In this document: in pieces, positions 8,505 through 52,664 of the stretch
How positions within the stretch are numbered: position 1 is the first letter of the stretch
How the letters are laid out: the number at the start of each line of letters is the position of its first letter
Virus record (IMG/VR): IMGVR_UViG_3300037156_000119
Location: 1 to 64,000 of that record
Strand: one strand, 5' to 3'
Source: a virus
Length of the DNA stretch: 64,000 nucleotides
Made by a program: the position numbers and the translations under genes
Notes under the pieces: generated by a model
The model's input: only the letters and a program-made list of their open reading frames with translations
What the model was told of the DNA's origin: nothing
Databases searched by the model: none

Positions 8505-11500
8505 ATGGCTGTCGATCCGCTCGCGCCCGACATAGGTTTGGACGCAGCGAAACCCGCTGTAGGATTGGACCCGCTCGCTGACCCCAACGCGCCGGCCGTC
8601 CCCGGCCCCTTCAAGAAGGGCTTCGGGGCCGCTGTCGCATCCACCAAGGCAAGTCTGTATGGCGCCGGCGCGCTCGCCGCCCACGCGGTAGGAGCCACTG
8701 ATGCTGAGCAGGCGGCGCTCGCCGCGGCCGCCGAGCACAACGCGGCTTCCAGTGAGCAGTCGCAGGGTCACCAGTTGGAGGATGTCAACTGGTCGAGCGC
8801 GAAGTCAATCGCTGACCAGGCCAAGTTCGTGCTGGGTAACGCCGTGCCTACGATGGCGCTCATGGCTGGCGGCGGCGCTCTGGGTGCGGTGGCGAAGGGT
8901 TTGTTGGGTCGGTACGCTACTTCGGCGGCGGCCAAGGCGGCGCTGAGCCAAGTCCCGTTACTCGGTGCCGTGGCTCCTGACGTCGCCCTCGAAGCCGGCG
9001 GCATCTACCCTCAAGCACTGGAAGAGAAGGTCGACAACCCCGCTTTGCGCGCGGCCGGGGGCGGTGCACTCGCCGCGGCGTTCGACTTCATCCCGCTCCT
9101 CGCCGCCGAGAAGTATCTGACCGCGGCGGGCAAGGGCGGTTTCGGCGCGATGGCCAAGGGTGCACTGAAGGGCGCACCCGTTGGGTTCGGGCTTGAGGGC
9201 ACACAGGAACTGCTCCAGTCGGTTGTGGAGCGTGCGTCGGCCGGCCAGTCGCTGACTACCCCTGATGCGATCTCGGACTACGCCAACTCATTTATCGGCG
9301 GCGCGCTGCCCGGTCTACTGGGTGGCGGCGTGTTGGGCGCGCACCGCGGTATGAAGGGGCCGGCGGCTGAGACCCCGCCAGTTAATCAAACGACCGAAAC
9401 CCCGGTAGTTCCGGGGGTTCTGCCAGCCGATCTATATCAAGCGCCACCCACTGCTGCCGAGGTCGATGCCCAGCGTGCGGCGATCGTTACGCCATCTGTC
9501 CAAGAACCGCTGGCGTCCACGAATACTGGACAAACGCCAGCAGTGAACACGCCGGTTGCGCAAAATGTCGCCGAAAATGTCGCACCGCCTGCGGTGACCC
9601 CTAGCACCTTAGCGACAGATCAGGTCGCACCCGCCGCGGACGTAGCGGGGCAGCGACAGGTGGCACCCGTAAGTGAAGCGGTGACGGGACCGGAAGCTCC
9701 ATACGCTAACCAATACGCTGCGGAGGCGACGGCGAAACAACTTGAAGCCGAGACAGGCGTACCCCATCAGGTAGTTCCGCATCCGACGCTGCCCGAGCAC
9801 AGCATGATCGTGCCGCAAAATGCCGCCGAAAATGTCGCGACCCCCACAGCGACCCAGACCGCGCTGCGAGATGAGGGCATCGTTCCGACGTTGCCCAAAG
9901 AATTGTCCGGCGCGAAGCCTCGATATAGCTACGGGGACAAGCAGTTCGCCCTTAACTTTGAGAGCGACACCGATCGCGCCGCATACATAACGGCGCAGCA
10001 GAAGCCGTCGAAGCGCGACGCGTCCTATCTCAAGTTCGCTATGGATGCTACCGGCCTTAGTGCAGCGGCCGTGCGCGCACACGGCGCCACGGTGCGAGAT
10101 ACCATTAAGGGGCTTGCGAAGGGTAGCGATCCCGGCACGCTGACTGTTCCAGCGCATGACGCGCAGGAAGGGCGTACAGTAATCACGCCGTCAGAAGATG
10201 CCATTATTGGCGCGAATACCGCCGGGGAGCAACTCCACCAGCGCCCTGACGGAAGCGTTTATAGAATGCAGCAAGGGCATCCTAACTTTGGGGGTGATCT
10301 TGCGGCCGCTCCCGCCCCAGAGTCAGGTATCCCCGCCAGCGTACGAGCCATGATCCATGACACGGGCGAGACGGGTGTGCCCACTGAGGTATTACACGCC
10401 AAGACCGACGCCGCCGTGCTTAATCCAGCAGGCGTAAATCCGGCTAGTGCACAGGATAATGGGCAACCCACAGTGGGTAGTGGCACGATCACCCCCGGAA
10501 GTGGCACGATCACCCCCACAAGTGGCACGATTGCACCGAAACCCGGTAGGGGCAAAAACATAGTAACTCCGCCGGCCGAAAACAAAGTCACGGTCGGGGA
10601 CAAGATCAAGGAACTCGACTCGGGGATTGAAGCGATCGCCCGCAAGACGGTCTCGCGCGAGCCCGCGGAACTGCGCGCGCTTCAGTCCACGGTTCGGGCG
10701 ATCGCGCAGTCCGCCTTCGCGCAACCGGAAGAGAACCAGCGGGCGTTCATCGATCAGCAAGTGCGCAAGGAAAAGGTCGGCGGATCGGTCGCGAGCAAGG
10801 TTAAGAAAAGTGAAGTGGAAGACCTGATCAAGCGCATGCACGAGTCGGTGCAGGGAGCGAACGCGCAGTTTTCGAAGGGGGCGATAGAGCAGGCGCAACC
10901 AAAGTGGTGGAACGAGCCGACTGACAACGCCTTCGCACCGAAGGGGATGACGCGCGGGCAAGAGCAAATGGATTGGCTTGAGCGCCACAAGATGCCGCAA
11001 GAAGGGAGTAAATATGTGTTCTACCATGCTACTCCGGCTGCATCGGTTGGTATGCTACAGAAAGATGGGATTCGTGCAGGCAGTTATTTAGCAGCCGATC
11101 CTGAGACCGCGAAGCACCAAGCAGGACGCGATCGTGGTCTCGCGGCTAATCAAGTGCAAGTTACGAAAGTGCTTTTAAACCCATGGGAGTTCCGCCCTGG
11201 AGTGCATCCGACGTTACGTGAGGATTATAAGCCGACGAGCGAATTTAAATCTGTCGCCGCCCAAGCCCTCACCCAGCCCGAGTTCGACGCCGCTTCGCCC
11301 GAGGTACAAGGCGTCATTGTCGACCGCCGCAACGCGATCTTAGCGGCCGCGGGTCAACGACTGGCTTCGTTGATAGGCCAAGATCCCGACCTGAAAGTGC
11401 AGACGAGTGAAATGCGTCCACATGGGGGGACTAGCCATGGGGTAGCGGGCAGTTTTACACCTATTGGGGGTCTCAAGTCGATCATTTACTTTGCGACAAA

Positions 11501-14500
11501 TGCGAAAGATGTACTCGGAGTAATGGACCACGAGGCGTGGCATTATATTGAGAAGTGGAAACTCAACGCAGAAGAGCGCGCGGTTGTAGCGCGCGGGCTC
11601 GCCCCCGGTACCGCGCGGCACGCTCAGTTGATGGAGAGAGTGCAGCGATACGATCGGGAAAACAAGACGAACCTCGCAGATGAAGTGGCGTCCAAGCCGA
11701 ATGAAGCACACGCGTACGGGTTTCAGTTCTGGCGCCGGGGGGAGTTGAAGGTCGAAGGCGCGCTCCAGAAGGTGTTCGAGAAGATCCGCGCCCTCCTCGA
11801 GAGGATCGTGAACGCGGTCAACGGGCTCGGGTTCAAGTCGATCGAGGACATCTTTGACGCGCTGGACCGCGGAGAGTTCGCGGAGCGGCAGAAGATAGAG
11901 AGCCGGGCGGGTGCTTCGGAAAGTGTAGTAAGGTTGTCGAGTAGTGCCGCTCGTGCTGGTCAGATCAACACACCGGAGTTCCGTCGTGCTGGATCAGTTG
12001 TCGACGGTAGAACTGTACGTGACGGTGTACCGAATCAATCGTCTATCGCAGCGTCGTTTACAAAGTATCAAATCTTGCCGGGCGTACGTGAAGTTCCAAT
12101 GTCGGCGATGGATCAAGAATATGTGAAAGACGTGCAGAGGCGTGGCGTTGATGCGGGCACGCAAACGCTTGCCGACCAGATTAAGGAATCAGAGGAAATC
12201 TCCCCGCTAATTGTTGCCGTAGATGCAAAGGGGCTATACATCCTTGAGGGGGGTCATAGGTTCGATGCGCTGCTTAAATTGGGGGCACGGTCGTTCCCGG
12301 CGCAGGTTGTTATGGACCTAGACGATGCGAAATTCTCAGAAATAGGTATCGGTAACCTTATCCCCGATTCCGAGCGCGCGCAGTTTTCCAAGGCTACGAT
12401 GGCGAACGAGAAGGAAGTCGCGCGGGGGCTCATTCACGCCTCTAACTTTCGCTACCAAGAGGCGAAGGCGGCCGCGGACTTGATGGAACACGCCGGCTCG
12501 CCGGACAACGTGATCAAGGCCGGGTGGGGCGCGACCAAGGCCGAACTTGGAACGGGCTTCGGGCACTGGTGGGCGAAGAACATGGCCAACGGGAACCTGA
12601 TCGCGCGATTCTCCAATGGCTACAAGAACGTGTTGGGCACGTTCAACACCTTCATTCGTTACCGCGGTTCCGTGATGTCCGCCATGATGGAGAAGATCCC
12701 CACTTGGCAGAAGGCAAGTCCCGAGGACCGTAACGCGGCGTTCAAGGCGATAACAGACCGCACGCTGGCTGACATCAAGAACGGGTCGTCCGAACTAACG
12801 GACCTCAGATCCAAACTCTCGCCGAAGCAACTGAAGATGTTCGATGACGCAACAGTGATGATCGAGCATATCCTGCGCACGGAGTTCGCGTCCGACGCTG
12901 AGACCTACAAGCGCTACTTCACAACCCCCGCCGCCTACAAGGAATGGTACGACGCGCGCAACGCGTGGGTGAATACCATGGTCAATCAGGGTTACGCCCC
13001 GCTCAAACGCTATGGTGACCACACGGTGCGCGTGTTCGGCGTCGGCCATGATGGGAAGAAGATAGACACGCTGTACTCCCACTACGACAGCCCCGGCATG
13101 GCGTCGTGGGTGGCTAAGCAGTACACGGATGAACTCAAGCGCAAGGGGATCACCGCCTTGCAAGTCGAAGTAGGAACCGCGCACAAGAACGATCAGCACA
13201 CGGGTATCCCACTCCAGCAGTTCTTTGACACTGCCCGGCGCAACGGAGTGGAGATCAGCGACACGGCGCGCGAGCAGATCGTGCAGGCGCTCTCCGCCGC
13301 GGACTCCATCACCCGGAACCGTATGATGCACCGCGAGAACGTGCCGGGGTTCTCGCGAGACGGCATGCGCGTGCTGGCTGATATGGTGACGGCGTACTCG
13401 GGCAAGCTCGCCTACGCCAAGTTCGCGTCCGCGCTCGAGGCCGCGGGAACCGGCCAGCCAGTGCAGTCGGACGTCGTCAAGAACCAACAGACCGGCGTCC
13501 AGGAAGCACAGATCAGCGTCGATGATAACCACGAGAACAATCTCTGGAAGGCAGAGCAACCGCTCGACGGGTTCTATCACAACCTCGCCAACGAGATGTC
13601 GAACTTCGTGCTGGTTCCTGATCACTCCGGCGGGTGGTCTCGCCGCTCGCGCGCCATGGCGATGATGTATTTTATCGGCGGCTCGATCAGCGGCGCGATG
13701 GTGAACTCCATGAGCGTGCCGATGCTTACGGCCCCGCAACTCTCCATCCACACAGGCTCGTGGAACGCGTATTCCACGACGCTAACCTCATGGAAGGAAG
13801 CGTGGCAGCATCAGGCGGTTATGCGGGATATCGTGCGGTTACAGAACAAGGACAACGACCCGAAGAACTCTCTCGGCTCCCTTGACAAGATCGAGGGCCT
13901 GCGCGACGCGCTTCACGACGCATGGGATGTGCTGTTCGATACGGAAGTCCACCAGATCATGGGTATCGCGCAGGGGCAGATGTTCTCCCAGAGCAACACG
14001 GTGCAGAAGGCAATCGAAGTCTGGATGACCCCCTTCCGAATATCCGAGCAGATGAACCGCGTGGCCTCTTTCATCGCCGCGTACAAGGTCGGGATGCAGG
14101 ATGACTTCAAGCATCTCGATCCGAAGACCGGAGCACTGAATGGCAAGGAAGGCGCGCTGACCGGGCAGGACTTGAACAACTTCGCGCGTAACGTGGTGGA
14201 CCAGACGCAGAACAACTACAACGAAGCGAACCGCCCCGGCGCCGCGAAGAACCCGGTGTTCGCCATCATGTTCATGTTCAAGAGCTTCCCTCTGTTCATG
14301 ACCGAAGCGATCTATCTCATGCACAAGGCGAACCCGAAAGCTGCCCGTAATATGTTACTGGGCCTTACGATGATGACCGGCATCCAGGGGTTGCCGTTCG
14401 CCGAGACGATCGAGGACCTGATCGACACGATTGCGCAGGATCTCTTCGGCTCCACGTTCAACACCCGGCGCGCGATGCGAAACATGATCAAGGAAGCGAG

Positions 14501-15227
14501 CGAGGCCATCGTGGGGTATGATGCGTCCGAGCTCGTGCTGCGTGGCGTGATCAACGACATCTTCGGCATGAGCGCCTCCTCCCGCATCGGCGCGGGGGAC
14601 TTCGTGCCCGGCACCCGGCTCGGAACCGCGGACGCCGATGCAGGCCGCACGCTGACGTCCCTCCTCGGCGCGCCGGTGTCCATGGGCATCGACGTCGCCA
14701 AGAACATCGGGCCGCTTGTGCAGGGGATAGCGGGTGGGGATTGGAAGCAGGCGGCTGACGCGTTGCGGGCGGGTGGCCCCGCGGCTGTGCGGAACCTGAT
14801 CAAAGGGACCGAGCAGTTCAACAACGGTTACGCGTCGGATGCGCACGGGCAGAAGATTCTCGACGTGTCCAGCCTTGAAGCGCTGTTCCAGACGATGGGC
14901 GTCACGCCGGCGAGTTTGAACAAGATGTACCAAACTGACATGATCGACCGGCAGACCAAGGCGTTCTACACCCAGGTTCGGGCAGGCATGCAGAACAGTC
15001 TCGTGCAGGCGCTGCGGGCGGGGGACAGCGAGAAGGCGGCTGAGATCTGGTCGAACGCCACGAAGTGGGATGAGGCGAACCCGGATGAGCCCCTGCGGCT
15101 GAGTGGGGCCACGATCCGCCGGCAGATCATGCTCGGCGGCATGCCGTTGAATCAGCGCACAATGATGCTTCTCCCCCGCCAGTTGAGAGGGACGAGCGTC
15201 GCGGCCGAGGGTATGAATCAGCAGTAA
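8505..15227 (+). CDS. Giant polyvalent (probably ejected) virion protein, 2240 aa
   Basis: The largest gene in the window. Residues ~1-290 are Ala/Gly-rich with hydrophobic stretches (~105-140 and ~255-280) that could insert in membranes. Residues ~290-700 are low-complexity linkers, including three tandem copies of an SGTI(T/A)P unit near residue 665. Residues ~836-920 (YVFYHATPAAS, then GIRAGSYLAADPETA) resemble an ADP-ribosyltransferase-like fold. HEAWH at 1009-1013 is a zincin-type metalloprotease motif. Residues ~1200-1270, with EGGHRF at 1248-1253, match the core of a ParB/Srx-like nuclease domain. The last ~850 residues are a long helical region with two hydrophobic patches, as in large polyvalent proteins. 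The likely role is injection with the DNA to protect or process it in the new host. Domain calls are from motifs only. Confidence 0.7.
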   Translation: MAVDPLAPDIGLDAAKPAVGLDPLADPNAPAVPGPFKKGFGAAVASTKASLYGAGALAAHAVGATDAEQAALAAAAEHNAASSEQSQGHQLEDVNWSSAKSIADQAKFVLGNAVPTMALMAGGGALGAVAKGLLGRYATSAAAKAALSQVPLLGAVAPDVALEAGGIYPQALEEKVDNPALRAAGGGALAAAFDFIPLLAAEKYLTAAGKGGFGAMAKGALKGAPVGFGLEGTQELLQSVVERASAGQSLTTPDAISDYANSFIGGALPGLLGGGVLGAHRGMKGPAAETPPVNQTTETPVVPGVLPADLYQAPPTAAEVDAQRAAIVTPSVQEPLASTNTGQTPAVNTPVAQNVAENVAPPAVTPSTLATDQVAPAADVAGQRQVAPVSEAVTGPEAPYANQYAAEATAKQLEAETGVPHQVVPHPTLPEHSMIVPQNAAENVATPTATQTALRDEGIVPTLPKELSGAKPRYSYGDKQFALNFESDTDRAAYITAQQKPSKRDASYLKFAMDATGLSAAAVRAHGATVRDTIKGLAKGSDPGTLTVPAHDAQEGRTVITPSEDAIIGANTAGEQLHQRPDGSVYRMQQGHPNFGGDLAAAPAPESGIPASVRAMIHDTGETGVPTEVLHAKTDAAVLNPAGVNPASAQDNGQPTVGSGTITPGSGTITPTSGTIAPKPGRGKNIVTPPAENKVTVGDKIKELDSGIEAIARKTVSREPAELRALQSTVRAIAQSAFAQPEENQRAFIDQQVRKEKVGGSVASKVKKSEVEDLIKRMHESVQGANAQFSKGAIEQAQPKWWNEPTDNAFAPKGMTRGQEQMDWLERHKMPQEGSKYVFYHATPAASVGMLQKDGIRAGSYLAADPETAKHQAGRDRGLAANQVQVTKVLLNPWEFRPGVHPTLREDYKPTSEFKSVAAQALTQPEFDAASPEVQGVIVDRRNAILAAAGQRLASLIGQDPDLKVQTSEMRPHGGTSHGVAGSFTPIGGLKSIIYFATNAKDVLGVMDHEAWHYIEKWKLNAEERAVVARGLAPGTARHAQLMERVQRYDRENKTNLADEVASKPNEAHAYGFQFWRRGELKVEGALQKVFEKIRALLERIVNAVNGLGFKSIEDIFDALDRGEFAERQKIESRAGASESVVRLSSSAARAGQINTPEFRRAGSVVDGRTVRDGVPNQSSIAASFTKYQILPGVREVPMSAMDQEYVKDVQRRGVDAGTQTLADQIKESEEISPLIVAVDAKGLYILEGGHRFDALLKLGARSFPAQVVMDLDDAKFSEIGIGNLIPDSERAQFSKATMANEKEVARGLIHASNFRYQEAKAAADLMEHAGSPDNVIKAGWGATKAELGTGFGHWWAKNMANGNLIARFSNGYKNVLGTFNTFIRYRGSVMSAMMEKIPTWQKASPEDRNAAFKAITDRTLADIKNGSSELTDLRSKLSPKQLKMFDDATVMIEHILRTEFASDAETYKRYFTTPAAYKEWYDARNAWVNTMVNQGYAPLKRYGDHTVRVFGVGHDGKKIDTLYSHYDSPGMASWVAKQYTDELKRKGITALQVEVGTAHKNDQHTGIPLQQFFDTARRNGVEISDTAREQIVQALSAADSITRNRMMHRENVPGFSRDGMRVLADMVTAYSGKLAYAKFASALEAAGTGQPVQSDVVKNQQTGVQEAQISVDDNHENNLWKAEQPLDGFYHNLANEMSNFVLVPDHSGGWSRRSRAMAMMYFIGGSISGAMVNSMSVPMLTAPQLSIHTGSWNAYSTTLTSWKEAWQHQAVMRDIVRLQNKDNDPKNSLGSLDKIEGLRDALHDAWDVLFDTEVHQIMGIAQGQMFSQSNTVQKAIEVWMTPFRISEQMNRVASFIAAYKVGMQDDFKHLDPKTGALNGKEGALTGQDLNNFARNVVDQTQNNYNEANRPGAAKNPVFAIMFMFKSFPLFMTEAIYLMHKANPKAARNMLLGLTMMTGIQGLPFAETIEDLIDTIAQDLFGSTFNTRRAMRNMIKEASEAIVGYDASELVLRGVINDIFGMSASSRIGAGDFVPGTRLGTADADAGRTLTSLLGAPVSMGIDVAKNIGPLVQGIAGGDWKQAADALRAGGPAAVRNLIKGTEQFNNGYASDAHGQKILDVSSLEALFQTMGVTPASLNKMYQTDMIDRQTKAFYTQVRAGMQNSLVQALRAGDSEKAAEIWSNATKWDEANPDEPLRLSGATIRRQIMLGGMPLNQRTMMLLPRQLRGTSVAAEGMNQQ

Positions 15228-19323: not shown

Positions 19324-19890
19324 ATGTTGAGACGAGCGGCAATGTTGATGAGTACGCGTATAACTTACACTTACGCAACATGGAATCCGATCGACAAAGG
19401 TACGAATAACGTCTTATCTAACGGAAATCTTACAAGCACAATAGCCGGAGCAGGAAACTCCGTAAGGGCCACCGTTGGGGTTTCTTCTGGTAAATCGGTT
19501 GCGGAATTTACTATAGTGACCGCAACGGGCGCAGGTATTGAACTTGGCGTAGCCAATCTTTCAGCCAATCTTGCTAATGAGGCTGAATCTGATGCTAATT
19601 ATTGGATGTACTATGGATATAACGGAAATAAACAGAATAACAGTTCCGTTGCATATGGAGCCTCGTACACGGAAGGCGATGTCATCCGCATGGAACTCGA
19701 TAGGGGCGCAGGTTCACTCGTGTTTTTCAAAAACAATGTATCACAGGGAACCGCATTTACGGGGCTAACTGGTACTTTGTATCCGGCGCAGTCTTCTGGT
19801 TCGTCTTCAGGCAATTCAGTAACTGCAAATTTTGGATCTTCGCCGTGGGTAAATACCCCGACGGCTGGATTTGTAGGGTTCCACAACTGA
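19324..19890 (+). CDS. SPRY-like domain protein, fibre-associated (188 aa)
   Basis: Begins three bases after the fibre stop. Residues ~20-185 fit a SPRY-like beta sandwich: a TWNP start, SSGKSVAEF, EGDVIRMELDRGAGSLVFFK, then NNVSQGTAF and a LYPAQ segment. SPRY-like modules in phage tails are thought to bind receptors or glycans. It is a paralogue of the gene at 20436 but diverged in sequence and base composition (more AT). No signal peptide. Likely a separate receptor-binding or decoration subunit. Confidence 0.65.
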   Translation: MLRRAAMLMSTRITYTYATWNPIDKGTNNVLSNGNLTSTIAGAGNSVRATVGVSSGKSVAEFTIVTATGAGIELGVANLSANLANEAESDANYWMYYGYNGNKQNNSSVAYGASYTEGDVIRMELDRGAGSLVFFKNNVSQGTAFTGLTGTLYPAQSSGSSSGNSVTANFGSSPWVNTPTAGFVGFHN

Positions 19891-24215: not shown

Positions 24216-25423
24216 GATTCCAGGTATGCCCTTATAAACTCTTCCGCGACCGGCGCACAGATCGCGTTACCATAGCCGCGCAGTCGTCCCACACGGTTGG
24301 TAGCCCCATTAACCAGCGGGGCAATGCCGGGTTCAACTGGCCGGCTTTTACCGTCGCGGCAGGCGATCCATTCGGCGTTGGACCAGAAGCCGTTAGTTGC
24401 ACTTGGCGGCCGAGTAGTGCTGAGATTGGTACAGTCCCCGCTTCCAGTTGCTTCGAGCAGTCCCCGTCCTTGTGGTCGCGCGTTGTCGGTGTCGCCCATG
24501 AACTCAGCCTGCTCTGGCTCGTCAGCGTGTCCGGCGTCCCCCGGTGCGCGCCCGTTGATTCCGAGTCCTCGGCGCGAGGGGTGGCCCAAGCGGAGAACTT
24601 CGCCACATGCTCCAGCGATACCGTGTGCTTCCGGCCGTCCATCGTCATACCGGTCGCGCTCATCTTGTCGATCGAGACTGACCGACCCCCGCTCGGTGTG
24701 TTCGGAGTCGGCCAACTCGCCAGGTGTAAATGCGCCATGCAATAGGGTGAGGGCCTCGGGTTCCAGTTGTGAATCGGGCATTCGTTGCTGATCATTCGCG
24801 GTTCTGTTTCTGGACTCTGGCAATCGCACTCCGTGGGGCATGTGCAGCTCAGTTGCGCCGCAGTCTGTAGATTCTCGCCCCCCTCGCCCCTCGTGCCCAC
24901 TCCGGTTGTGTTGCTCGACTTCGGACTCGGCCACGAAGTAAAGCCGCTGCCTGATGTGCGGCGCCCCGACGCCCGCAGCGCACAGATCGGTCGCCCCGAA
25001 GGCGTATCCCGCAGCTTCCATGTCAGTGTGAACAAGGTCGAGCCAAGCGAGGCCAGGTTTGCTTCCAACCTGCTCGCCAAAGATAACTGGAGGTCGGCAG
25101 ACCTCGATGAGATGGTAGTAGGCTGGCCAGAGATGCCGCTCATCATCAAACCCGCCGCCTTTGCCTGCCGCGCTGAAAGGCTGGCACGGGCAGGAGCCGG
25201 TCCAGACGGGGCGGTCGTCAGTCCATCCAGCGTTACGGAGTGCGTAACTCCAGACCCCGATGCCGGCGAAGAAGTGGCACTGGGTGTATCCGGCAAGCTC
25301 ACTTGGCCGAACGTCGCGTATGTCTCGCTCATCTACCTCTCCTGGAGCGATGTGCCCCGCCTTGATAAGTTCCCGTAGCCACGCCGCGGCGAACGGGTCG
25401 ATCTCATTATAGTATGCCGTCAC
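24212..25423 (-). CDS. DNA (cytosine-5) methyltransferase (403 aa)
   Basis: The GTG at 25423 overlaps the primase stop. C5-methyltransferase motifs appear in order: FFAGIG (motif I, 51-56), GSCPCQPFSAAG with catalytic Cys80 (IV), FGEQVGSK in place of the usual ENV (VI), APHIRQRLYFVAE (VIII, ~154-166), and GYGNAI close to the end (X). The long 165-380 segment between VIII and IX is the likely target-recognition region and is unusually polar. It probably modifies phage DNA against host restriction. Most of the gene is overlapped by a 366-codon frame on the same strand (24232-25332). Confidence 0.85.
   Translation of the reverse strand: MTAYYNEIDPFAAAWLRELIKAGHIAPGEVDERDIRDVRPSELAGYTQCHFFAGIGVWSYALRNAGWTDDRPVWTGSCPCQPFSAAGKGGGFDDERHLWPAYYHLIEVCRPPVIFGEQVGSKPGLAWLDLVHTDMEAAGYAFGATDLCAAGVGAPHIRQRLYFVAESEVEQHNRSGHEGRGGRESTDCGATELHMPHGVRLPESRNRTANDQQRMPDSQLEPEALTLLHGAFTPGELADSEHTERGSVSLDRQDERDRYDDGRPEAHGIAGACGEVLRLGHPSRRGLGINGRAPGDAGHADEPEQAEFMGDTDNARPQGRGLLEATGSGDCTNLSTTRPPSATNGFWSNAEWIACRDGKSRPVEPGIAPLVNGATNRVGRLRGYGNAICAPVAEEFIRAYLES
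24232..25332 (-). CDS. Alternate-frame ORF nested in the methyltransferase gene (366 aa)
   Basis: Same strand, different frame. It starts at an ATG with AGGAGAGG eight bases upstream and stays open for 366 codons across ~90% of the methyltransferase. It is Ser/Thr/Pro-rich and carries repeated tryptophan steps (SWPSPKSSN, SWPTPNTPS, SWATPRAED, SWATPTTRD), a CALRASGRRTSGSG segment and a NPALPRWLMGLP-type end. I recall similar W-x-T-P ORFs lying over phage cytosine methyltransferases, usually annotated as hypothetical. Whether it is translated or is a by-product of GC-rich codon use cannot be settled here. Confidence 0.4.
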   Translation of the reverse strand: MSETYATFGQVSLPDTPSATSSPASGSGVTHSVTLDGLTTAPSGPAPARASLSARQAKAAGLMMSGISGQPTTISSRSADLQLSLASRLEANLASLGSTLFTLTWKLRDTPSGRPICALRASGRRTSGSGFTSWPSPKSSNTTGVGTRGEGGENLQTAAQLSCTCPTECDCQSPETEPRMISNECPIHNWNPRPSPYCMAHLHLASWPTPNTPSGGRSVSIDKMSATGMTMDGRKHTVSLEHVAKFSAWATPRAEDSESTGAHRGTPDTLTSQSRLSSWATPTTRDHKDGDCSKQLEAGTVPISALLGRQVQLTASGPTPNGSPAATVKAGQLNPALPRWLMGLPTVWDDCAAMVTRSVRRSRKSL

Positions 25424-28215
25424 CCGAGCAGCGCTCCAAGTTCTGTGTGATCCGCTTGCACCTTCCAACACGACACCTGTCCACCAGTCAGGTCCGTCCC
25501 GCCGCCGAGCACCTTCTTGACGTCGGCCTCGAGCAGTATCCCGCGGGCCATCAGATCGTCCTTGATTTCGTTGTAGTTGTAGTGCCGCTCGTCCATGTAG
25601 TGCTTGAGGTGCTTGCGACCGATGTAGAGCAACTGGGAGTCCTTTTCGTAGCGCTGGCTCAGCGCGCGCATCGGCCGCTGGTTCAAGCCGGTGAGCCCGG
25701 CGTTCAGCCGCGTCACGGTGAGCCGCTCGCCGATGTGCTCGTTCAGGTAGTCTCCGAGGACCGCCACCGACCCGGCCATCCCTTCGGCTAAGTTGTGGCG
25801 CATGCGCCGCGTCTCGCTCTGCAGCCACGGCACGATGCGCTGGGGATCGAACTCGATCAGCCCCCACTCGCGCGCGAGCTCGCCGCCGTAGAGCGTGAGC
25901 GCGATCGCCTGGCTCCAGAAGCGCTCCTTGTCGTCCATCTGGAACCGGGCCTCGGCCTCCTCCACCACGGTCTTGAGCTTAGACCGTATCGCATCCTGAT
26001 GGTTCACGAGTCCCTCGATATATTTCTCGCCAGCCAGCCCGTAGTTTTCCTGCACGGCGGCTGGGATGATTTTTGATATTGGCCCGAACTCGCGCGCCTT
26101 GGGGAACCGGAACTCGAACAGGCGCAGGCCCTCAGCCTCGGCATTGGCCTTCTCGAGTTGCAGCTTCGACTGTAGGGAGTCGTTGGTCGAGGTCACGAAG
26201 ATGGTTGCCCACTCAGCCCCCTCGCGTAGTGAGTAGTCCTGCCGCATGCTGTCCCGTCCCTTGCCCGTCGGAATCATGTAGATCAGATCCCGCAGTTCCT
26301 TGGGTGCGATGGTGCTGGCCTCATCCATGTAGGCGGGCAGCGAGAAGTGCGCGCCCAGCCGCTGGATACGCGCGAGTTGGGTGTTGTCCCGCTTGATCCA
26401 CCCAGCATCCGGGTGGCCGTAGACTGAAGACATGAACATGCCCATCGTGGACTTGCCGGCGCCCGAGTCGCCCAGCGCGCAGACGGTGAACCCTTGGCGG
26501 CCGGCGAGCTTCAGGAGTGGGGCGGCGAAGGCAAGCAGGAGCATGAAGGCGTGGGGCTCAAACTTCGGGTTGTCCAGCACGCTCGTCAGCGCGCGCCACG
26601 CATCGAGCGACCCGCGGGAGTGGAAGGGCTTGAGGAAGCCTTCAGTGCCGTGGCTGAACCCCGCCTGGACAACTTCATCCTTGCGGTAGAGCTTGTCGCC
26701 CAGCACGAACTCAGTGTTGTTCTCCTTCCACCCTTGGGAGCGAAAGAGTTTACGCATCTTGGAGTCGGCGCTGATCTTCCTGATGTAGTAGTCTCCGTAC
26801 ATGGCTATTTTTCCTCGGACGAGAGGCCGGATATGGTTGTCTCTAAGGGCAGATTCGAACTCCACTGGTCGAGCCAGCAACGAGGAACGTAGTACACACT
26901 CCTTCCATCCTTCGTTTGGGAGGAAATGACGCCAGCGAGTTGTTTCGTATCCGAGTTGCTCGTCGTAGGCAAGCTCAACAGGGTAAAGGTCATATTCATA
27001 AATTTTGTGCGTTATCCCATCTTCTTCGATGTAGATCCCGCCTTCCGCGCCGCGGGTGAAGGGTGCTGGGGGAACTGGTATGGTAAGCTGGACCAGCTTA
27101 TCGGCGATTCGGACTTCGACGACCGGCGCCGGCGCGCTGGTGATTTGGGTGCCAAGCTGGGCGGGGCTGGATATTTTGCCTTTGAACGGGCAACTATCGC
27201 ATCCCGCAGGATTGCGAGACTCGAACGTAGCGCACAGAGTCGGACCAAGATTCTGTCCTCTAACCTGCGCGATCTTCCGGTTCGTCTCTCCTTCGGTATA
27301 GCCTTCATAGCCTTTACTCCATTCATGAATTAACGCGTCGCCTTCGACCGAGTGGCAGAGGAGTTGGATCGCGGCGTACCAGTGGGGTTCAGATACTTGC
27401 CCACGGGTGTCACGAACGGCCCGAAGTTGGGCACATCGTTCAGCGACTTTTTGACCGCTGCACGGCGGGAAGCTTGACTTGACCGCGAGGTCTTGGTTGA
27501 TGGTTTCCGTTTTGGCTTCGACTTGCCGGACGGCTTCGGGGGGTTTGATGCCCGCATCACTAAGTCCACGAAGCACAATCCCATTGAAAGTGGCAAAATC
27601 CAGTGGCACGCTCTCGCCGATGAGTTCCACGGGTCTAGGTACGCTGGCGTTCTTTCGATTAGTCGTCCCAACTGGTCGCAAAACTCTTGCTGAGTCAGAG
27701 GTACAGGCAGGGTCGCTTTTGAATCCGAGTTTCGCGCTGAGTTGCTTGAGTCCTTCGGCTGTTGCTTTCCATGCTTCGGGTTGGATTTCATTATTTAGTG
27801 TCCAGTAAATATGAACGCCGCCGCCGCTAGAGATTACCATCGGCATTGGCAGTTGGGTTTCACCCAAGAACTCGATCAGCCCATCGATCGCCGCTTCCTG
27901 AGACTCGAACTTCTTCTCGTTGCCGGGTTCGACGTCGAGGTCCATCCAGAAGCACTTAAGCGACCGCACGTTTTTACGTACCCGAACCTGATGCCACACT
28001 TCACCGTTCGGCCGGACAGTTTCAACATCGCGACTTTGGAACGTGGCGCAGGCGTGGTACGTCGGCACGCCCTGCTTGTCAAACTCGAGCGCATAGTTGG
28101 CCGCCTCTTGGATCGATTCGCAGACCTGGTGCCGAAACCCCTTCGGGGTCAACCGGGCGATGATGTACAGACCCGTCGGTGGCCAAATCTTGCGCAGAAA
28201 CTCTACTGTATCCAC
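25420..28215 (-). CDS. DNA primase/helicase: PrimPol-like domain plus DUF927-like ATPase (931 aa)
   Basis: The N-terminal ~210 residues match an archaeo-eukaryotic primase fold: FWMDLDVE (metal-binding D92/D94), ISSGGGVHIYW (128-138) and SDSARVLRPVGTTNRK (173-188). The middle holds a Cys cluster (NPAGCDSCPFKG). The C-terminal half is a P-loop ATPase with GDSGAGKST at 582-590, an acidic PAYMDEAST segment and an arginine-rich sensor region, as in DUF927-type phage helicases. It should prime and unwind at the fork, serving the family A polymerase at 39897. It heads the replication module by position. Confidence 0.85.
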   Translation of the reverse strand: MDTVEFLRKIWPPTGLYIIARLTPKGFRHQVCESIQEAANYALEFDKQGVPTYHACATFQSRDVETVRPNGEVWHQVRVRKNVRSLKCFWMDLDVEPGNEKKFESQEAAIDGLIEFLGETQLPMPMVISSGGGVHIYWTLNNEIQPEAWKATAEGLKQLSAKLGFKSDPACTSDSARVLRPVGTTNRKNASVPRPVELIGESVPLDFATFNGIVLRGLSDAGIKPPEAVRQVEAKTETINQDLAVKSSFPPCSGQKVAERCAQLRAVRDTRGQVSEPHWYAAIQLLCHSVEGDALIHEWSKGYEGYTEGETNRKIAQVRGQNLGPTLCATFESRNPAGCDSCPFKGKISSPAQLGTQITSAPAPVVEVRIADKLVQLTIPVPPAPFTRGAEGGIYIEEDGITHKIYEYDLYPVELAYDEQLGYETTRWRHFLPNEGWKECVLRSSLLARPVEFESALRDNHIRPLVRGKIAMYGDYYIRKISADSKMRKLFRSQGWKENNTEFVLGDKLYRKDEVVQAGFSHGTEGFLKPFHSRGSLDAWRALTSVLDNPKFEPHAFMLLLAFAAPLLKLAGRQGFTVCALGDSGAGKSTMGMFMSSVYGHPDAGWIKRDNTQLARIQRLGAHFSLPAYMDEASTIAPKELRDLIYMIPTGKGRDSMRQDYSLREGAEWATIFVTSTNDSLQSKLQLEKANAEAEGLRLFEFRFPKAREFGPISKIIPAAVQENYGLAGEKYIEGLVNHQDAIRSKLKTVVEEAEARFQMDDKERFWSQAIALTLYGGELAREWGLIEFDPQRIVPWLQSETRRMRHNLAEGMAGSVAVLGDYLNEHIGERLTVTRLNAGLTGLNQRPMRALSQRYEKDSQLLYIGRKHLKHYMDERHYNYNEIKDDLMARGILLEADVKKVLGGGTDLTGGQVSCWKVQADHTELGALLG

Positions 28216-45272: not shown

Positions 45273-45545
45273 TCACTTCCCTTCTAGGTAGTTTTCGATT
45301 GACCTGCTGCTACACTGAATCCCGAGCGCTTTGCACGTCGCCCGGAACGCTCTTATGTTCAACCAGTAGTGAGCTATAGAATCCACTCCGTATAACTCAA
45401 GCCGCTCACACATCGCGGCCGCCGTGGATAGCGCGTAGTCTTCCACGCTCTCATCCTTGGCGAGCGGGTGTGGCCCTGGCCCGAGCACGGTAATAAGCGC
45501 GGGGGCGTACGCGTCGATGAAGGCAGCGAGGCGGGCGGGGTTCAC
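45273..45545 (-). CDS. Hypothetical protein (90 aa)
   Basis: The GTG at 45545 overlaps the previous stop (GTGA). The frame upstream of this GTG stays open but reads through the low-complexity repeat of another gene, so it is rejected. The protein is helical (LAAFIDAYAPALITVLG, then EDYALSTAAAMCERLELYG). Unknown. Confidence 0.5.
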   Translation of the reverse strand: MNPARLAAFIDAYAPALITVLGPGPHPLAKDESVEDYALSTAAAMCERLELYGVDSIAHYWLNIRAFRATCKALGIQCSSRSIENYLEGK

Positions 45546-45763
45546 GATGAACTTCCCCCTTTCCTCGCGCGCCGCTTCACCCGCTCCGCTTCGGCCGCAG
45601 GGCGCCGGTCGGCCCCGAGGTCTCCCCCCTTGAAGAGCCACATCATCGAGGACAAGAGCCAGTCCAGCGAGTCGTCGCGGGGCTTGGGCGGTAGGGCGAC
45701 GCACAGGGCGGGAGGGGGCTTGATACCCATCAGCCCCTTGAGCTTGCCGAATGAGAGTTTCAT
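45542..45763 (-). CDS. Hypothetical basic protein (73 aa)
   Basis: ATG at 45763 overlaps the stop of the repeat protein (ATGA). Begins MKLSFGKLKGLMGIKPPPAL; a WLLSSMMWLFKGG stretch is amphipathic; the tail is Arg/Lys-rich. Unknown; possibly nucleic-acid or membrane associating. Confidence 0.5.
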   Translation of the reverse strand: MKLSFGKLKGLMGIKPPPALCVALPPKPRDDSLDWLLSSMMWLFKGGDLGADRRPAAEAERVKRRARKGGSSS

Positions 45764-46383
45764 AGAAAATCCTCAAAACACTCATAAACCAGTTGTGTAA
45801 ATTCGCTCCGGGCTGCGCTCCAAGTTGCGCTCCGGGCTGCGCTCCAGGCTGCGCTCCGGGCTGCGCTCCAGGCTGCGCTCTCGGCTGCGCTCCAGGCTGC
45901 GCTCCGGGCCGCGCTCCGGGCCGCGCTCCAGGCCACACTCTCGGCCGCACTCTCGGCCGCGCTCCAGGCCACACTCTCGGCCGCGCTCCGGGCCGCGCTT
46001 TTTGTATTTTTTTCCCCAGTCATTAGCCAGTCAAGAACAATCTGATCTGGCACCCCTTGCCAGTTATCCAAGCAACTGACCGCTTGCATGCGCGCAAAGT
46101 AACCACATAACTCTGTTGCATCCATCCGGGCAATAATCCGGCGCCGATGGCACACCAGCTTATCATCCTGTTCGGCCTCGATTTGGCCCACTTCAACTAG
46201 GCAAAGAGTCGCGCCGGGCGCGTATTGGAGCGCGTCAAACGGCTCGCGGCTCGCGTGCAGTCCCGATTTGCACATCACGCACTTGCCGGGAAACTCAAGC
46301 CACTCGCCGTCTTTTGGAATTGGAGAACCATCGCGCAAAGTTTCACCTACAAAGTGCCAAGCTAATTGTCTCTTCGGTTTCAT
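45760..46383 (-). CDS. Phage protein with Ser-Ala-Ala tandem repeat tail (207 aa)
   Basis: Residues ~1-125 form a conserved-looking domain (AWHFVGETLRDGSPIP, then KSGLHASREPFDALQYAPGA and KLVCHRRRIIARMD) that I recall from many phages with unknown function. Residues ~128-192 are about sixteen SAAR/SAAW/SAAE four-residue units encoded by a 12-base tandem repeat, followed by a short end (LVYECFEDFL). The tail would form a helix with one face of Arg, Glu or Trp. ATG has no strong site but is coupled to the upstream stop. Confidence 0.65.
   Translation of the reverse strand: MKPKRQLAWHFVGETLRDGSPIPKDGEWLEFPGKCVMCKSGLHASREPFDALQYAPGATLCLVEVGQIEAEQDDKLVCHRRRIIARMDATELCGYFARMQAVSCLDNWQGVPDQIVLDWLMTGEKNTKSAARSAAESVAWSAAESAAESVAWSAARSAARSAAWSAAESAAWSAARSAAWSAARSATWSAARSEFTQLVYECFEDFL
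45809..46004 (-). repeat. 12-bp tandem repeat, about 16 units
   Basis: Units of GCTGCGCTCCGG on the plus strand, varying at a few positions (A/G, and AGGCCAC or TCTCGGC variants). They keep the reading frame of the gene at 45760 and code for Ser-Ala-Ala-X on the minus strand. Copy number is likely to vary between isolates by slippage. Confidence 0.85.
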
Positions 46384-50427: not shown

Positions 50428-50907
50428 TTACTGATTAGATGGTAATTGTGAAGCTGCCGCGCGCATGGCGTCACGATATTGATGCCATTGGGCGCCATGG
50501 AGTTTGATAGCGGTTGCTTGACATACCTTGCAGTACGCCTGGCGGCCATCTGGCATGCGCGCGCTGAAATAGTACTCACTGGTAGGCTTGCGATGCCAGC
50601 AAGCGCTGCAGCGCTTGCCAGTGTCACGGTTAGCGGTCAGGCGCGCGACAACGCGCTCGGACTTGCGCTTGATCCTGTTGTCGATTAAGACCTGTGCGCG
50701 CTGCACTGACTTGTTCTGATAATGGCGCGCGGTTATATCGCGCTGTATGGATTGCCCAGTAGCGTACGACATAGTCGCTATCTCAACAGGCGTTCGTACT
50801 TCACAGAACATGCATATCGGCAGTAGTTTACGCTCAACAAGCCGGATTTGGGTTAGCGCCGAACGCAGTTCGCCACAACATATACACTTAATATCAGGGT
50901 TTGACAC
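50428..50907 (-). CDS. Double zinc-ribbon protein, first gene of leftward unit (159 aa)
   Basis: GTG at 50907 with AAGGA eight bases upstream. Two Cys clusters: residues ~8-35 (CICCGEL, then LPICMFCEVRTP) and ~100-130 (KRCSACWHRKP, then AYCKVCQATA), each a C-x2-C pair of pairs. Between them lies a basic helix (QVLIDNRIKRKSERVVARL). As the first gene downstream of the divergent control region it is a candidate early regulator that binds DNA or RNA polymerase. A degenerate HNH nuclease is the main alternative; no His-Asn-His core is obvious. Confidence 0.6.
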   Translation of the reverse strand: MSNPDIKCICCGELRSALTQIRLVERKLLPICMFCEVRTPVEIATMSYATGQSIQRDITARHYQNKSVQRAQVLIDNRIKRKSERVVARLTANRDTGKRCSACWHRKPTSEYYFSARMPDGRQAYCKVCQATAIKLHGAQWHQYRDAMRAAASQLPSNQ

Positions 50908-50955
50908 CGTTGTATTCCTTATGTTGATAGAGGTTTAGAGAAAGTTTGACCCCAC

Positions 50956-51322
50956 TACAAGAATTAAGTTCAGTATATATCCTAGTACTATCCGTTATAG
51001 TTAGTGCGTGAGGGATACCAGTGCTCGTGGTAAGTGCATGGCGCATAACGGATAGCGCGAGGTGCTATCTTATTAGGTTGATAATCACCCCGAAAAAGAC
51101 ATGAGTCGCTTTCTTTCCGAAAAACACACGTGCACGCACGCGCGTCGTTAAGAAAAAGTAATAGATGTACCTATACTAAATAGTACTAGTATAATAAACC
51201 TAATAAGGATAGTATAGCGCTAAACGCTTTCCTTTTCAATGGGTTACGCTGCCCTTTGGTATCCCTCTCGCGCTATATATACGGATATGGAGGGGTATAT
51301 GATACACATGCTAATTCTTGTA
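50956..51322. repeat. Divergent control region: two diverged inverted copies of a ~125-bp element
   Basis: The 780 bases between 50908 and 51686 have no long gene and are AT-rich in the first half. Read outward from the centre, the left copy (51079 down to 50956) and the right copy (51197 up to 51322) share three exact 11-mers, AACCTAATAAG, TGGTATCCCTC and TAATTCTTGTA. Their spacing is 59/60 and 54/55 bases. Between the last two blocks both have ACGGATA and a TATA-like box (TATACT on the left, TATGAT on the right) that could be a -10 element, without a convincing -35. Likely promoters or an origin. Confidence 0.7.
50988..51055. promoter_or_regulatory. CTATCCGTTAT inverted pair, candidate operator
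   Basis: CTATCCGTTAT (50988-50998) and its exact complement ATAACGGATAG (51045-51055) lie inside the left copy of the duplicated element. The core ACTATCCGT also occurs at 50215-50223 after the first leftward gene, and a partial ACGGATA lies in the right copy. It could be a regulator-binding site shared by several promoters. Confidence 0.4.
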
Positions 51323-51644
51323 ATGACTTGCTAAATCATATTCTTTTTAGTTTATAGCCGCTTTGCGACCGCCAGCGCGACCGCTAAATCGTGTAGTGAC
51401 TAGCGCTGAGGGTTAAACTCCTTAAAACCGCGCTCGACACGTTAAACGGCAGGCGTGATGCGCTAACCAACGCTAATGGTTATCATTACGGCGCTCGACA
51501 ACGCGAATGAGAAGCATTCTTATCTGTAGACCTGGCGAGGGGCTTGGGGGGTAAGCTGCGAGGGGGGTGGGCGTTCGTAGCCCCTCGCGCACACCGCCAG
51601 CCATGTTCCAGCCAAACTAAAAATCTAGTCACTAGAAATTTAGT
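51323..51644. other. Gene-free leader of the rightward unit with repeats
   Basis: Holds no ORF I believe. Visible are a GCGCTCGACA direct repeat (about 51434 and 51491), a GCGAGGGG direct repeat (51535-51542, 51558-51565) whose second copy can pair with CCCCTCGC (51581-51588), and a near-palindrome AAATCTAGTCACTAGAAATTT at 51621-51641. It may be untranslated leader, an operator region or part of an origin. Confidence 0.45.
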
Positions 51645-51664
51645 CGGGGGGTTGACGCCCCCCG
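51645..51664 (+). terminator. Strong GC hairpin before the packaging genes
   Basis: CGGGGGG-TTGACG-CCCCCCG, a perfect 7-bp stem ending 23 bases before the first rightward gene. It lacks a T-run. It may be an attenuator or antitermination site for the late operon, or protect the mRNA 5' end. Confidence 0.5.
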
Positions 51665-51686
51665 CCATCCGTGAGATGATGAAATT

Positions 51687-51845: not shown

Positions 51846-52105
51846 ACCCCCTCACCCCCTCGCAGGTCGACACCATCCGCGCGCACCTAGCGCGCCGCAT
51901 GACCGCCACGCAGTCCGCCCGCGAACTTGGTGTGAGGAAGGACACGGTGCTCAAGTATCGTCGGCAGATCAGTCCGCTCTACACACCCAGGTGTGAATGT
52001 GGCCGGCCGATCACTCATGCGGGGCAGTGCACGGCGCGCACTATGAAGTTCAACATACCTCACATCATAGGCGCCCGCATCATTCACGGGTACGCGCATG
52101 GGTGA
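51842..52105 (+). CDS. Helix-turn-helix protein with Cys knuckle (87 aa)
   Basis: ATG overlaps the upstream stop. Residues ~18-40 (MTATQSARELGVRKDTVLKY) are a resolvase/sigma-like helix-turn-helix. Residues ~50-65 hold CECGRPITHAGQC, a possible zinc knuckle. Its stop overlaps the next start. It may recognise packaging DNA (a terminase accessory) or regulate late transcription. Confidence 0.6.
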   Translation: MNPLTPSQVDTIRAHLARRMTATQSARELGVRKDTVLKYRRQISPLYTPRCECGRPITHAGQCTARTMKFNIPHIIGARIIHGYAHG

Positions 52106-52664
52106 AGACCTGATTCTCGAACCGAGGGCGATCACACTGGAAACCGTGCGCGCACATAAGGACGCGGACATCGATCTCCAACTCACCGCTGCGCAGCAGC
52201 AGGCCCAGCGCATGCTCGCCGTGCCGGGGCTCTACAAGACATCCCTCGAGCAGATGGCGTGCGAACTGGCGCTGGAAGTGGAAGAGCCGGGCATCATCTT
52301 CGCACGCTACGGCTACACGGACGAGACCGCGGTGGGGCTTCTCGAGACCCCCGGCTTCGCGTCGACGCTCGAAAGGATCTCGAAGGAGGTTAGAGAATCG
52401 GGCCTGTCGTTCAAGACCAAAGCTCGAGCACAGGCTGAGCAGTTGCTGGCCACCTCATTTGAGATCGCAACTGACCCGCAGCAAAACACCGCGGTGCGCG
52501 CCGACCTTGTGAAATGGACTTGCAAAATGGCCGGCTACGAACCGAAGACCAACGACGAGAAGGGTGCAGGCAACGGCGGCCTGAACCTTAGCATCACGTT
52601 TGCGGGACAAGCACCACAGGTAGTTACTCATCAACCACTAACCATCGAAGGAGAATCAGCATGA
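52098..52664 (+). CDS. Candidate terminase small subunit (188 aa)
   Basis: Residues ~40-150 are helical and contain IIFARYGYTDETAVGLLETP, FASTLERISKEVRESGLSF, then KARAQAEQLLATSFEIATD, a layout I associate with small-terminase-like proteins encoded a few genes before the large terminase in podovirus-like phages. The C-terminus is Gly/Thr/Val-rich. It would bind the packaging site. There is no decisive motif; a regulatory role remains possible. Confidence 0.55.
   Translation: MGEDLILEPRAITLETVRAHKDADIDLQLTAAQQQAQRMLAVPGLYKTSLEQMACELALEVEEPGIIFARYGYTDETAVGLLETPGFASTLERISKEVRESGLSFKTKARAQAEQLLATSFEIATDPQQNTAVRADLVKWTCKMAGYEPKTNDEKGAGNGGLNLSITFAGQAPQVVTHQPLTIEGESA

Follow-up and report, generated by a model that had tools for sequence, protein, structure and literature searches.

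Mirror-image arms around the least stable DNA of a 64-kb phage genome mark a probable replication origin

The region at 50.95-51.33 kb of the DNA analysed here (the window: 64,000 nucleotides of a 64,251-bp virus record, which has no end repeats) is probably the replication origin of this phage. In the mechanism that we propose, two diverged inverted arms would carry candidate sites for a phage-encoded initiator, the host bending protein IHF would help to fold the arms, and melting would begin between them, where the DNA is the least stable of the genome. A PrimPol-DUF927 helicase encoded at 25.4-28.2 kb is the probable initiator; its C-terminal domain may bind the arms, perhaps with one helicase ring on each; two outward-facing helicases loaded in this way could then replicate the genome bidirectionally, as proposed for SaPI/PICI islands. 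An earlier note on this DNA had read the arms either as a duplicated promoter or control element, one for each divergent unit, or as an origin-like structure. The second option is supported: a melting element separates the arms, IHF sites and repeated words particular to each phage occur with them, an initiator-type Rep is encoded, and the architecture is conserved. The idea of one promoter per copy is not supported by the comparison with relatives outlined below. For most uncultured phages no replication origin is known, and the region provides a concrete, testable candidate for a phage family which includes a cultured Pseudomonas phage.

The region divides a leftward unit, whose first gene encodes an endonuclease VII-like protein (50428-50907, minus strand), from a rightward unit comprising a conserved gene in the small-terminase position (52098-52664, plus strand), shortly upstream of the large terminase, and the portal. 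The same left and right genes flank the region in the relatives L001, L012, L015, L036 and L119, the last of which (G006:C8, 65.8 kb) was assigned by binning to a Gallionella MAG, which hints at the host group. Elsewhere, the window encodes a 2240-residue late-module protein (8505-15227), which lacks a Pfam match and whose C-terminal part matches phrog_11358, of unknown function, and two adjoining low-complexity ORFs (45273-46383) built of short repeated units of the PGAQ and AWSAARSAA types.

The left arm (50953-51085) reads outward on the minus strand, and the right arm (51191-51325) outward on the plus strand. As the earlier note had claimed, three 11-base blocks occur exactly once in each orientation: AACCTAATAAG at 51069-51079 (minus) and 51197-51207 (plus), the latter inside weak tandem 9-mers AGTATAATA AACCTAATA AGGATAGTA; TGGTATCCCTC at 51010-51020 (minus) and 51257-51267 (plus); and TAATTCTTGTA at 50956-50966 (minus) and 51312-51322 (plus). 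All are exact matches at the positions given there, the spacings of 59/60 and 54/55 bases between blocks are as described, and both copies share ACGGATA. The likeness extends beyond the blocks, as local alignment of the right arm with the reverse-complemented left arm runs end to end with a score of 40, against a mean of 11.4 (sd 1.8) and a maximum of 21 among 1000 dinucleotide-shuffled arm pairs, which bears out the contention that the resemblance exceeds chance. When the same test was slid along the entire record, the mirror point at 51180-51190 gave the top inverted pair, with the runner-up at 24.5. The rest of the window contains no block match with fewer than two mismatches.

Among relatives, fetched using terminase and portal, the plan of the region is kept and its letters are not. 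The blocks of the window, used as a search key, found no conserved copies, so that the sequence search which the earlier note had proposed would by itself have meant that the element is not conserved. The architecture is conserved: two diverged inverted arms are present in 11 relatives, among them Rollin, a cultured Pseudomonas phage with arms at 138-335 and 629-830, mostly between the same divergent gene blocks, and in L001 and L004 they occupy the same place with unrelated sequences. Across the 12 phages, left-right arm scores within a genome range from 22.5 to 42, and scores between genomes average 13.2 with a highest value of 34 among three related right arms, such that arms, with few exceptions, resemble their own partner more than the arms of other genomes. 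Dinucleotide shuffles reached the observed arm score in 0 of 500 trials for 11 of the 12 regions and in 2 of 500 for the remaining one, although it was the arm scan itself that supplied three of the regions (L027, L068 and L089), a selection that favours them. Further, the arm score is below the genome-wide maximum in G002 and G006, and a mirrored-arm scan over all loci also yields coding repeats and hairpins (L096, L044-L049), and thus cannot stand alone. Strong mirrored arms are absent from the least stable spot of the distant relatives G005 and G009, so that the plan could be confined to closer relatives; weak ones surround that spot in the Rhizobium phage RHph_TM3_14A, and no such region was seen in G004, whose record is probably incomplete there. 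The divergence of the copies is what would be expected of an old inverted duplication without present function, but retention of the same plan in relatives despite unrelated arm sequences leaves this reading scarcely plausible.

A candidate DNA unwinding element lies between the arms at 51171-51210: in a nearest-neighbour stability scan no other 40 bp of the 64,251-bp record are less stable, and a 60-bp stretch there has a z of 5.1 for instability. AT-rich intergenic DNA is common. The record-wide least stable 40 bp and 80 bp both lie between the arms in each of the six large records which hold the region, the window's own included (G000, G001, G002, G003, G006 and Rollin). The 40-bp minimum in these six lies 41-80 bp to the right of the mirror centre in the direction of the terminase, after allowing for the reversed storage of G001. 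Beside the melting element, on the right inner side, a 9-bp tandem period has a mean z of 2.8 over the 12 regions, and the runner-up period, at a z of 1.4, is its double. The AT-skew minimum falls 60-1242 bp from the centre in five of five genomes, a measure confounded by gene direction, which skew tracks. GC skew was discarded as proof of an origin, given the same confounding and a minimum near the arms in only three of five genomes.

Short words repeated in mirrored fashion are a further attribute of the arms, and are found in L001, L004, L012, L027, L068 and Rollin. TTGCATA occurs eight times in the Rollin region and once elsewhere in 61 kb, and mirrored arrays of nine CGCCTTA in L068 and nine CGTCTA in L027 consist of words which are rare elsewhere in those genomes; TAGACCA in L012 and GTGATAG in L001 are likewise phage-specific. 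The words of the window itself are weak, with a best p of about 1e-6 which is equalled by random stretches of the same genome. We rejected word enrichment as sole evidence, as a p of 1e-9 or lower can arise in 600-bp stretches taken at random from the genomes of the window and of Rollin; word counts are therefore not decisive alone.

IHF sites are concentrated around the melting element. Counted up to 350 bp from the least stable spot, 13 records contain 14 exact consensus sites (WATCAANNNNTTR), where 0.47 were expected from local composition, a rate 85 times that elsewhere; the site occurs just 0-4 times per large record. Exact pairs, facing outward with one site per arm, are present in G002, G006 and L012, and single exact sites in G003, L015, L027 and Rollin. 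The window has no exact site, its sole near match being TTTCAATGGGTTA (51234-51246, plus strand), in the right arm and one mismatch from consensus, at the place where several relatives carry an exact site; its iteron and IHF signals are the weakest of the set. RHph_TM3_14A played no part in the discovery of this pattern, and the only two IHF-consensus sites of its genome flank the least stable spot. These face inward (near 19442 and 19760), as does a pair in L031 (4257-4522), the opposite of the arrangement in nearer relatives.

IHF sites beside repeats could also denote a pac- or cos-like packaging site, bound by the small terminase together with IHF; lambda cosB combines the same two ingredients, and the region lies upstream of, and next to, the gene in the small-terminase position. 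Packaging needs one direction, however, and would leave both the mirror symmetry and the genome-wide melting minimum without a reason. Moreover, the records, which lack end repeats, end elsewhere (in late genes here, and in a terminase gene in G002), and we regard packaging as very improbable.

The position of the region between divergent units invites a transcriptional interpretation, in which a phage activator or repressor on the mirrored arms, with bending by IHF, would balance the two units. Near-consensus sigma-70 promoters do flank the region in relatives, and an 87-residue ORF with weak similarity to DNA-binding proteins comes next on the right. In several relatives the leftward promoter sits on the outer margin of the left arm, roughly 150-255 bp away from the centre, and the rightward promoter lies 414-745 bp from the centre, far past the right arm. 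The rightward unit of the window has a sigma-70-like promoter (TTGACG-17-GATGAT; 51652-51680, plus strand) outside the arms at the same place as in relatives, and no strong leftward promoter was found in the window by sigma-70 score. About five 28-bp tandem repeats occupy the gap between right arm and rightward promoter in L012 (6150-6300), and different GC-rich repeats fill that gap in other relatives. As the promoters are asymmetric about arms which are themselves symmetric, the copies do not represent one promoter each, and we rejected that candidate, no promoter being found at a matching place in each copy. The genome-wide stability minimum, too, is between the arms and away from the promoters, and neither the arm blocks nor the main words form clusters elsewhere. 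Transcriptional control appears rather unlikely. No phage RNA polymerase was detected among the scanned proteins, which represent part of the genes.

The outward reading of inverted copies into two long units also recalls HK022 put and lambda nut, related inverted copies of which lie in two divergent early units, and would place RNA-level antitermination sites in each of the long transcripts. In the window, folding of the two copies is marginally better than that of shuffled sequences (z about -1.85), but in L001 and L004 it is no better (z -0.1 to +1.8), and the arm copies have no Rfam match. Unlike put and nut, they have no conserved RNA fold, and the rightward promoter is downstream of the right arm, so that the rightward transcript would not contain that arm. 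We rejected a put- or nut-like element on these grounds, and find antitermination barely credible. Even collectively, the readings other than an origin and transcriptional control are quite unlikely.

As to what might bind the blocks, for which the earlier note had suggested a host or phage activator, the best reading is a phage-encoded protein acting as a putative replication initiator. The candidate Rep (25420-28215, minus strand; 931 residues) combines a PrimPol (AEP) domain, a DUF927 helicase and a SaPI-Rep-like C-terminal domain, according to profile and predicted-structure matches. Its profile matches include SCCmec Cch (5dgk, 6.7e-21) and SaPI Rep (8tch, 3.9e-17). The structure model has low overall confidence, with a weak middle and good ends, and it is the ends which match: residues 1-225 with PrimPol 6zp9 (Z 16.3, rmsd 2.5, 171 aligned), and residues 812-930 with both the C-terminal domain of SaPIbov1 Rep (8tch 452-557; Z 10.5, rmsd 2.5, 96 aligned) and the DNA-binding relaxosome protein 5vfx (Z 10.1, rmsd 2.6, 91 aligned). 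All seven of the large or complete records that were searched encode Rep, and the four in which it was not found are fragments of 18-43 kb. Conservation among relatives is lowest in the C-terminal part, which lends weak support to a domain that reads changing sites. A protein of RHph_TM3_14A annotated as 'putative integrase' (MN988472.1, L125:12239-15322) is 24.5% identical to the window's Rep, 94% of which the alignment covers, and judging from sequence this annotation is probably wrong.

The candidate origin bears a likeness to E. coli oriC, which likewise combines oppositely oriented initiator arrays with a melting element and a site for IHF; oriC uses the nearly universal DnaA boxes, whereas the words here differ per phage. 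The closer parallel is with phage-inducible islands, whose origins place two iteron sets around an AT-rich region (PMC6092414, PMC7581432). As in SaPI/PICI origins (SaPIbov1 Rep, PDB 8tch; E. coli PICIs), two sets of short repeats surround an AT-rich melting region, in that the arms flank the least stable stretch in six of six large records with the region, albeit with weak words in the window; the iteron words are specific to each element; and the element itself encodes a candidate initiator of the SaPI/Cch kind, a self-loading DUF927-type helicase whose C-terminal domain is related as well. Cch, which carries DUF927, is related to SaPIbov1 Rep, and Cch2 binds iterons via its C-terminal domain (PMC7581432). 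The helicase of SCCmec Cch is homologous to that described here, but belongs to a staphylococcal cassette, and the site bound by Cch2 consists of just three direct-repeat iterons. In contrast to SaPI/PICI elements, these are tailed phages of about 64 kb, their sets are long mirror-image arms with IHF sites, and the primase is fused to the helicase, as also in some PICIs; DUF927 domains joined to primases are known from mobile elements (PMC5862659). The SaPI/PICI origin is immediately 3' of rep, whereas here it would lie about 23 kb away between divergent units, and rep is also far from the arms in G001, G002, G006 and Rollin. The layout would work like a PICI-type origin, with membership of that class incomplete since adjacency to rep is lacking. 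More tentatively, and at somewhat less than even confidence, we suggest that the whole tailed-phage family uses such an origin, with two IHF-bent mirror-image initiator arrays and one melting element, in which words turn over quickly under a constant layout, a co-evolving Rep maintaining their similarity inside each genome. The paired arms offer a natural set for studying the joint change of initiator and site, and the comparison links this phage family to an initiator type known chiefly from work on staphylococcal islands; if the family-wide proposal is true, it could point to shared ancestry of phage and phage-satellite replicons.
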